Assembly: GCA_030834695.1 (NCBI GenBank)
Contig: JAUQXK010000089.1
Coordinates: forward strand, 1 to 64,000
Source of the DNA: Desulfobacterales bacterium
Lineage (GTDB): Bacteria > Desulfobacterota > Desulfobacteria > Desulfobacterales > SpSt-501
DNA: 64,000 nucleotides
Direction of reading: 5' to 3'
Every line of letters begins with the position of its first letter. Position 1 is the stretch's first letter. The position numbers and the translations under genes are program-made. The notes beneath the pieces were generated by a model that had not been told where the DNA came from, ran no database searches, and saw nothing but the letters and a program-made list of their open reading frames with translations. Of this stretch, positions 27,662 to 29,501 are shown piece by piece.

Positions 27662-28054
27662 CTAATACCGGCTGCCTCCCCGCCCGGAGCCGCCGTATGA
27701 AGACCCGGATCCGGAGCGTCCACCCCGACCAAAACCGCCGCCGCCGCCGCCCCGTCCGGGTCCACGCGAAAACCCGCCTCTGCCGGTGCCGCCGTCGCGA
27801 TCCTTCCGGGGTTCCCTCGCTTCGCTCACCGTGATGGTCTTGCCCTGAAGTTCTCCGCCGTTGAACCGCTCGATGGCCTGGCGCGCGGCATCTTCGGTCT
27901 CCATCTCCACAAAACCGAAGCCCTTGCTCTGGTTGGAGTACCTGTCCTTGATGATTACGGCTGAAACCACGTTTCCGACCGTGGAAAAATTGTGGGTCAA
28001 ATCCTGCTCGGTCACTTCGCTGGAGAGGTTTCCGATGTAAAGCCTCTTGTTCAT
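27662..28054 (-). CDS. RRM RNA-binding protein with Gly-rich tail
   Basis: A 130-residue protein with one RNA recognition motif (residues about 1-80): RNP2 LYIGNL and RNP1 KGFGFVEM are both intact, with the aromatic residues that stack on RNA. A Gly/Arg/Ser tail (RGG-like) follows. Proteins of this shape in bacteria bind single-stranded RNA and are often cold-inducible. It lies downstream of the cold-shock gene on the same strand, separated by a stem-loop, and may share its transcript. AAAGGATCGGG precedes the start. Confidence 0.9.
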   Translation of the reverse strand: MNKRLYIGNLSSEVTEQDLTHNFSTVGNVVSAVIIKDRYSNQSKGFGFVEMETEDAARQAIERFNGGELQGKTITVSEAREPRKDRDGGTGRGGFSRGPGRGGGGGGFGRGGRSGSGSSYGGSGRGGSRY

Positions 28055-28214: not shown

Positions 28215-28415
28215 TTAAACGGTTTGTACGTTGACGGCCGAAAGGCCCTTCGGCCCATTCTGCACGTCGAAGCTGACAGACTGGCCATCCAGAAGCGTTT
28301 TGAACCCACTGCCCTGGATCGCGCTGAAGTGGACGAACACATCAGATCCATTTTCAGCCTCAATAAAGCCGAAGCCTTTGGCCTCGTTGAACCATTTGAC
28401 TTTGCCTTGCATCAT
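28215..28415 (-). CDS. Cold-shock domain protein
   Basis: A 66-residue CspA-family protein, the normal length. RNP1 KGFGFIE and RNP2 DVFVHFSAI are intact, along with the opening [14 protein letters not shown]. It binds single-stranded RNA/DNA and melts RNA structure at low temperature. Two consecutive ATGs start the gene; AAAGGAGGAGGAAAG lies upstream of both. Its leader is about 158 bases long from the predicted promoter (28581-28609) and contains a terminator-like hairpin. It is followed by the RRM protein gene, giving a pair of RNA chaperones. Confidence 0.95.
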
Positions 28416-28467
28416 CGCTTTCCTCCTCCTTTCTCAAATTTATTCAAGGGCGGATTACGACGATGCT

Positions 28468-28500
28468 AAAAAAAACCACCACACTTTGAAGAGTGCGGTG
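28468..28500 (-). terminator. Intrinsic-terminator hairpin inside the cold-shock leader
   Basis: Read on the minus strand: CACCGCACT, loop CTTCAA, AGTGTGGTG, then GG... TTTTTTTT (8 T, plus-strand A at 28468-28475). The stem has 9 pairs including one G-U. It lies about 75-105 bases after the predicted transcription start and 52 bases before the cold-shock ATG. It could attenuate the gene or end a short RNA. Confidence 0.7.
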
Positions 28501-28580
28501 ATTAAACCTACGCTGCAAAATGTTTTCATCCAACCTTTGATGCACTCGACAGGCCTAAAGCAAGTCGAATACTTGCTCGG

Positions 28581-28609
28581 ACTATAATGCCTTTAACCGT
28601 TGCGGTCAA
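28581..28609 (-). promoter_or_regulatory. Sigma-70 promoter of the cold-shock gene
   Basis: Minus-strand TTGACC (28604-28609), a 17-base spacer and TATAGT (28581-28586). It gives a leader of about 158 bases, similar to the long leaders of known cspA genes. A 6-bp hairpin (GCAAGT/ACTTGC) lies right at the predicted RNA 5' end. Confidence 0.65.
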
Positions 28610-28895
28610 GGAAATAAGTGTGATCTGCGCCATTTCGCGCGCTCAGCGGGCTGCGGAGACGGTGCCTCACTGCATCCGAGATCGGCGCCGCCGGCGCCGA
28701 TTGCCGGAGTCATAATGCTGAGTCTTTTAAAAGCAGCGCTAAGGCCTCTGCGTTGCAAGTTCGGATAGCATGGTTAACCTGAATGAAATAGGGGTTGGGC
28801 TGAGGCAATGAAAAACCCAACGCCTTGATGTCTTTGCAGCGGCGACAGGCCGAGCAGAGCCATCCGCACTCATAAAAATCTTAGGGAGGTATCCG

Positions 28896-29501
28896 ATGTC
28901 GCATACATTGCCTAAGCTCGACTATGCATATGACGCGCTGGAACCCTATATCGACGCGCGCACCATGGAAATCCACCATACCAAGCACCACCAGACATAC
29001 ATCGACAAGCTCAACGCCGCTCTGAAAGGGCATGGCGCCATTGAAGCGATCAGCGTTGAAAAACTGATCCGGGACCTGGCCACCGTCCCTGAGGCCATCC
29101 GCACGGCCGTGCGCAACCACGGCGGCGGGCACGCCAACCACAGTTTTTTCTGGCCGACCCTGAAGAAAGGGGTCAAGGCCGGCGGCCCGACGGTGGATGC
29201 CATCGCCAAAAAGTTCGGAAGCTTCGACAAGTTCAAGGAAGGTTTTTCGAGCGCTGCCGCCCTGCTTTTCGGAAGCGGCTGGGCGTGGCTGGCGGTCAGC
29301 TCGGGCGAACTGGAGATCGTGGCTACCCCGAACCAGGACAGTCCGATCAGCCAGGGAAAAATTCCCATCCTCGGCATTGATGTCTGGGAGCACGCCTACT
29401 ACCTGAAGTACCAAAACCGTCGTCCGGAGTATATCGCGGCCTTCTTCGAGGTGATCAACTGGGAAAAGGTCAACGAGCGCTATCAGTCGGCGCGAAGCTG
29501 A
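28896..29501 (+). CDS. Superoxide dismutase (Fe/Mn family)
   Basis: A 201-residue protein of standard length. The four metal ligands are present: His27 (MEIHHTKHH), His82 ([11 protein letters not shown]), Asp162 and His166 ([18 protein letters not shown]). Gly near 77-78 and Gln147 in the second sphere favour manganese or dual-metal use over strict iron use. It converts superoxide to peroxide and oxygen in the cytoplasm, useful for an anaerobe under oxygen exposure. GGGAGGT lies 6 bases before the ATG. A terminator follows directly. It stands as a single-gene unit. Confidence 0.95.

Follow-up and report, generated by a model that had tools for sequence, protein, structure and literature searches.

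Based on the comparison of one cold-shock protein (csp) leader with the csp leaders of its genome, genus and phylum, we propose that this leader works as a two-stage switch, in which a transcription attenuator is followed by a co-transcriptional translation switch; we put the probability of this reading at about 0.55. The leader lies in the window, i.e., the whole stretch of 64,000 nucleotides of contig JAUQXK010000089.1 from a Desulfobacterales bacterium that was analysed. The combination of a terminator and a hairpin that covers the Shine-Dalgarno (SD) sequence probably serves real on/off control, since the same layout, built from unrelated sequences, was found before many csp genes of the phylum Desulfobacterota, and, judged from these sequences, the presence of a terminator before csp is not due to chance. 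The parts of the window leader are as follows:

28581 to 28609, minus strand: predicted promoter, TTGACC-N17-TATAGT (sequence match)
28542 to 28572, minus strand: P0, a hairpin at the 5' end (minimum-free-energy and centroid folds)
28528 to 28537, minus strand: 5' arm of P1, AAGGUUGGAU, a mimic of the SD region (comparison and survey pairing)
28507 to 28526, minus strand: conserved core AAAACAUUUUGCAGCGUAGG, modelled as unpaired (conservation in the genus)
28468 to 28503, minus strand: P2, the predicted intrinsic terminator, with its hairpin at 28503-28474 and a run of eight U at 28475-28468 (scan, fold and covariation)
28446 to 28466, minus strand: anti-initiation segment GCAUCGUCGUAAUCCGCCCUU, the 5' arm of P3 (pairing and folds)
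28455 to 28446, minus strand: AUCCGCCCUU, the part of the anti-initiation segment that doubles as the 3' arm of P1 (pairing and folds)
28430 to 28425, minus strand: SD sequence of the csp gene, AGGAGG (sequence)
28409 to 28429, minus strand: 3' arm of P3, over most of the SD sequence and the start codon (folds)
28215 to 28415, minus strand: cold-shock protein gene, 66 amino acids, ATG at 28415 (open reading frame and Pfam CSD)
28455 to 28529, minus strand: possible leader open reading frame of 24 codons through the terminator, not conserved (reading of the frame)

The product of the gene was found to be a cold-shock-domain protein (Pfam CSD, 8.2e-29). Counted from the expected start of transcription near 28574, the leader is about 159 nt long, and the predicted terminated RNA is about 107 nt. 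The P2 hairpin has 12 pairs and a 6-nt loop (-16.0 kcal/mol at 37 °C), its U-run is located about 52 nt upstream of the ATG, and the P3 hairpin is predicted at -24.1 kcal/mol. The first-pass annotation of this DNA had named the same promoter, a leader of about 158 bases and a hairpin with a T-run about 52 bases before the ATG, all of which were recovered here; the position of the hairpin and its eight T also held, whereas the stem, which had been described as having nine pairs, proved to be longer. The two competing helices, P1 and P3, which flank the terminator and point to a control of translation as well, go beyond that annotation. The core AAAACAUUUUGCAGCGUAGG is strongly conserved in the genus and has a related UUUUGC..GUA in genus g41, and a hairpin like P0 is also visible by eye at the 5' end of other leaders. 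The gene directly downstream of the window csp (27662-28054, minus strand) encodes an RRM RNA-binding protein, and csp and RRM genes also adjoin in several other genomes of the phylum (e.g., G411, G448, G437 and G400). The divergent gene on the other side (28896-29501, plus strand) resembles, by eye, an iron/manganese superoxide dismutase.

In the 4 kb around the leader, three promoter-like sites were found compared with 1.2 expected from shuffles, and seven terminator-like sites compared with 4.7 ± 2.1 expected. As the local terminator scan was not significant by itself, the terminator was tested by comparison. The DNA of the window leader, when used as the query, had matches in seven of 58 genomes, namely its own and all six of its genus, and none in the 51 other genomes of the order. 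Seven CSD matches are present in the own genome, and three carry the homologous leader. Four of the six own csp leaders that were tested have a terminator (the seventh CSD gene, L007, was left out of this count because no start was assigned to it), and the distance from the U-run to the start in these four is 63, 63, 63 and 72 nt. The terminator of the last one (L006) is unrelated in sequence to those of the other three and occupies nearly the same position. Within the genus alone, the covariation signal was modest and most of the P1 pairs were invariant, so that the case for P1 rests on the wider survey described below. At one locus (L009/L147, G005:C130), a csp leader joins the coding region immediately past the terminator, with the SD sequence and start missing, which reflects either a deletion or an assembly error.

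More distant relatives were found using covariance models. Model R1 had matches in 11 of 291 genomes of the order, R2 in 30 of 389 genomes of the class and R3 in 39 of 395 genomes of the phylum (30 of 246 genera). A csp gene lies directly downstream in 23 of the 28 R2 loci that were read and, according to a scripted check, in 24 of 29 R3 loci; the weak matches L177, L178 and L179, which have no csp gene, were judged to be false after reading. A pattern scan of named genomes (109 stretches) returned mostly chance matches; matches of R3 were judged real at seven of the 96 loci searched, and these seven are titled Desulfobacterales, Desulfatibacillum or Deltaproteobacteria. The sequence of the terminator stem is not conserved between families. 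In genus g41, for example, the stem GCCAACAAGG..CCUUGUUGGC replaces CCACCACAC..GUGUGGUGG, while the hairpin, the U-run, the flanking arms and the spacing are kept. In an alignment of 23 leaders from several families, 96.0% of the cells of the putative terminator and SD-sequestering pairs were paired, and two-sided changes were counted in 63 cells compared with 26.0 in shuffles and at most 13 in slid controls; the structure used was the consensus of the alignment itself, and the shuffle counts are not probabilities. Accordingly, the P2 pairs stay paired through two-sided changes, and the P3 pairs covary between families.

For an independent survey, csp genes were picked by Pfam CSD in 59 genomes of the phylum, which avoided searching with our own leader model. 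Of 136 rows from outside the own genome, 15 with lower scores and one located at the edge of a contig were left out, which gave 120 survey leaders. A terminator was called where a hairpin of 6 or more pairs and -8 kcal/mol or lower was followed by an 8-nt stretch with 6 or more U, no more than 200 nt upstream. Such a terminator was found in 52 of the 120 leaders and in 11 of 120 on the antisense strand, with the remaining 68 leaders having none under these criteria, and in 42 of the 52 the distance from the U-run to the start codon is 45-80 nt. For comparison, a terminator was found for 13 of 79 other phylum genes whose upstream regions are free, and for only one of the 79 does it fall in this band; the Fisher p value for csp compared with these genes (7e-10) overstates independence because the survey genomes are related. 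The csp genes of other named bacteria have a terminator in 5 of 29 cases and in the band in 2 of 29, in a set that comprised 29 usable loci of 30, one locus per genome with the best csp only, in which the genome of L374 is possibly another member of the phylum. Outside the phylum, a possible case is the acidobacterial csp leader L362, whose strong terminator lies about 50 nt ahead of the start. RRM genes (30 loci given, of which seven with no start found and one that was too short were dropped) carry a terminator in 3 of 22 cases, and were rejected as regular carriers of a csp-type leader because only one of the 22 falls in the band.

Of the 42 band leaders, 29 have a promoter-like site ahead of the hairpin (antisense strand, 5 of 42), and its -10 element ends 33-77 nt from the hairpin; when at least 10 of 12 matches are demanded, the counts for the 42 leaders are 24 sense and one antisense. 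Because the promoter is usually upstream of the hairpin, the terminator belongs inside the csp transcription unit, which places a hairpin and U-run between the promoter and the csp start codon, as in an attenuator. The earlier suggestion of a possible attenuation is therefore well supported, since many csp genes of the phylum have the terminator within the unit and at a constant spacing from the start codon.

The second layer concerns the anti-initiation segment that follows the U-run, which is complementary both to the SD/start region (P3) and to the upstream mimic (P1). When arms swapped between families served as controls, the own P1 pairing exceeded the swapped one in 35 of 42 leaders (Wilcoxon p = 1.1e-6) and 9 of 10 families (p = 0.007), and the own P3 pairing did so in 28 of 42 leaders (p = 0.0013) and 8 of 10 families (p = 0.016). 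This pairing, which would be expected of a translational switch, is individually significant (p < 0.05) only in part of the survey leaders, 12 of 42 for P1 and 11 of 42 for P3, and a first, looser duplex test was weaker, with the own pair being the best in only 6 of 42. Examples are leader L269, with P1 formed by GUAGGUUGUAA/UUACAACUUAC and P3 by GGCUAUUACAACUUACUUC/GAGGUGAGUUGUAAUGGCC, which covers the AUG, and leader L284, with P3 formed by GCCAGAGCGAUAUCC/GGAUAUCGCUAUGGC. An antiterminator helix that sequesters the 5' arm of the terminator gave no signal in the 42 leaders: the own pairing scored 12.3 and the swapped pairing 12.1, and the own value was the higher one in 17 of the 42 (Wilcoxon p = 0.51).

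Predicted folds of 29 hand-picked leaders (30 were given, and one with no U-run was dropped) suggest the order in which the two helices would form. In RNA cut before the SD sequence, the anti-initiation segment pairs upstream in the 29 leaders, while in the full RNA at 37 °C it lies mainly on the start region in 21 of 29 and stays upstream, in P1, in 8 of 29. The equilibrium folds of these leaders differed little between 10 and 37 °C. For the window leader at full length, forcing P1 costs about 17 kcal/mol relative to P3 at 37 °C, and on refolding from 5 to 55 °C the equilibrium probability of P1 was 0.000 throughout, with no switch. An RNA thermometer that works by melting at equilibrium is thus not supported, since the balance between the open and closed forms hardly depends on temperature in these folds and P1 is unpopulated in the full-length window RNA. 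Because P3 is predicted to win in the full-length RNA of most of the leaders folded, at both 10 and 37 °C, we infer a kinetic switch instead.

According to the proposed mechanism, RNA polymerase would start near 28574 and meet the intrinsic terminator about 70 nt later, where, as the sequence and the conserved architecture suggest, some transcripts would end at 28475-28468. In the read-through RNA, the segment after the U-run would first pair with the upstream mimic, and P1 would close the terminator domain while leaving the ribosome site open; once the SD sequence and AUG have been made, the segment could re-pair with them in P3, the closed form. This order, from P1 to P3, is the one suggested by the folds of the cut-off and full-length leaders. 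Cold would slow the refolding from P1 to P3 so that fresh mRNA stays translatable, and an ample supply of the Csp chaperone would speed it up and shut the gene off. Csp may also alter the read-through of the terminator. Csp proteins in general are known to affect both termination and the folding of RNA.

Several other explanations of the same leader have to be weighed. It is rather unlikely, in our opinion, that the leader is a plain constitutive attenuator in which the terminator only sets the level of csp transcription and P1 and P3 are incidental. The terminator is indeed the most widespread part of the leader, and many terminator-bearing leaders have no P1 or P3 above the swaps, but both helices beat swapped pairing overall and in most families and the P3 pairs show covariation between families. 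The first-pass annotation had offered a free-standing small RNA of about 105 nt as the alternative, and an explanation in which the terminator yields a small RNA of about 107 nt, with the csp mRNA as its read-through product, seems improbable to us. A strong terminator near the promoter, a predicted structured 5' part and a core conserved in the genus would all suit it; however, a small RNA would need neither a fixed spacing to the csp start codon nor pairing beyond the terminator, both of which are left unaccounted for, and the stem sequence varies between families. A short terminated RNA may still arise as a by-product.

Attenuation by a leader peptide, in which translation of a frame beginning MKTFCSVG... 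across the hairpin would block its formation, is suggested by the ATG in the 5' arm of P1 that opens the 24-codon frame through the terminator. This ATG is absent in four of ten leaders of the genus group (the paralogues L002 and L003; L016 and L017), the frame of L010 stops after four codons, and an SD-preceded open reading frame that reaches the hairpin is present in only one of the 42 survey leaders. A conserved attenuator of this kind was rejected, as the frame is not conserved, and we regard the explanation as very improbable. We give hardly any credence to the idea that the hairpin terminates an upstream gene and is located outside the csp leader. Terminators are common upstream of genes, as the 13 of 79 control regions illustrate, but the promoter-like site that precedes the hairpin in 29 of 42 leaders, the narrow spacing to csp and, in the window, the divergent orientation of the far-side neighbour on the plus strand all argue against it.

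The two-stage switch can also be compared with known systems. No Rfam family had a match in the window at the gathering threshold. The cspA thermosensor (RF01766) was absent among the matches up to E = 5 for 28350-28650 and gave one weak match in 20 survey leaders (16.5 bits vs the 78 needed), and membership of this family was therefore rejected according to its covariance model. The likeness to RF01766 consists of a csp 5' leader, alternative folds that expose or hide the ribosome site and an effect of Csp on its own mRNA; to our knowledge, there is no intrinsic terminator in the RF01766 leaders. The leaders of cspA and cspB in Caulobacter and of cspB and cspC in Staphylococcus use anti-SD pairing or act as thermoswitches, and the window leader resembles them in SD sequestration and competing folds. 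We know of no terminator between the competing arms of these leaders. Mutually exclusive helices, a terminator and SD sequestration are shared with riboswitches and attenuators; unlike them, the csp leader has no recognised ligand-binding domain, combines a terminator and an SD sequestrator in one leader and has no conserved antiterminator helix.

Premature termination is shared with the cspB and cspG leaders of E. coli, whose fusions rise in a rho mutant according to PMC7815308; termination is Rho-dependent there, while a hairpin and U-run are used here. PMC9765468 describes a higher read-through of intrinsic terminators after overproduction of E. coli CspD, an effect that is consistent with overcoming the terminator of the tnaC leader, and cites CspA, CspC and CspE as acting at another terminator. 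In B. subtilis, CspB and CspD favour termination at some sites, as stated in PMC8307031, which means that the effect of Csp here could have either sign. The mRNA of E. coli CspA is itself a target of the protein and, according to PMC9947658, has one form in the cold and another at 37 °C. No description of an intrinsic terminator in the csp leaders of Desulfobacterota was found in the mostly open-access literature that was searched.

Leaders of the same kind occasionally precede other genes, namely an RRM gene in G006 (L148) and members of a small protein family in G006, G001 and G114 (L142, L143 and L149). This family has the motif M.P..EF.F.V.E.YENEKG.F.V, and the one member that was scanned had no match in Pfam. 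Another csp locus (G416:C19:24913-25863) has four tandem csp genes within one kilobase. More tentatively than for the window leader itself, we suggest that there could be a csp leader class across the phylum Desulfobacterota, in which the terminator and a kinetic anti-/anti-anti-initiation switch would together let Csp proteins set the read-through and the translation of their own genes, and which an RRM gene and the small uncharacterised protein family would have taken over. If this is true, regulated csp leaders would be extended to a large group of anaerobes, in which they seem to be undescribed in the literature searched, and the leader would offer a compact and direct way to test whether Csp regulates its own gene at the levels of transcription and translation, with many sequence-diverse natural variants being supplied for testing.
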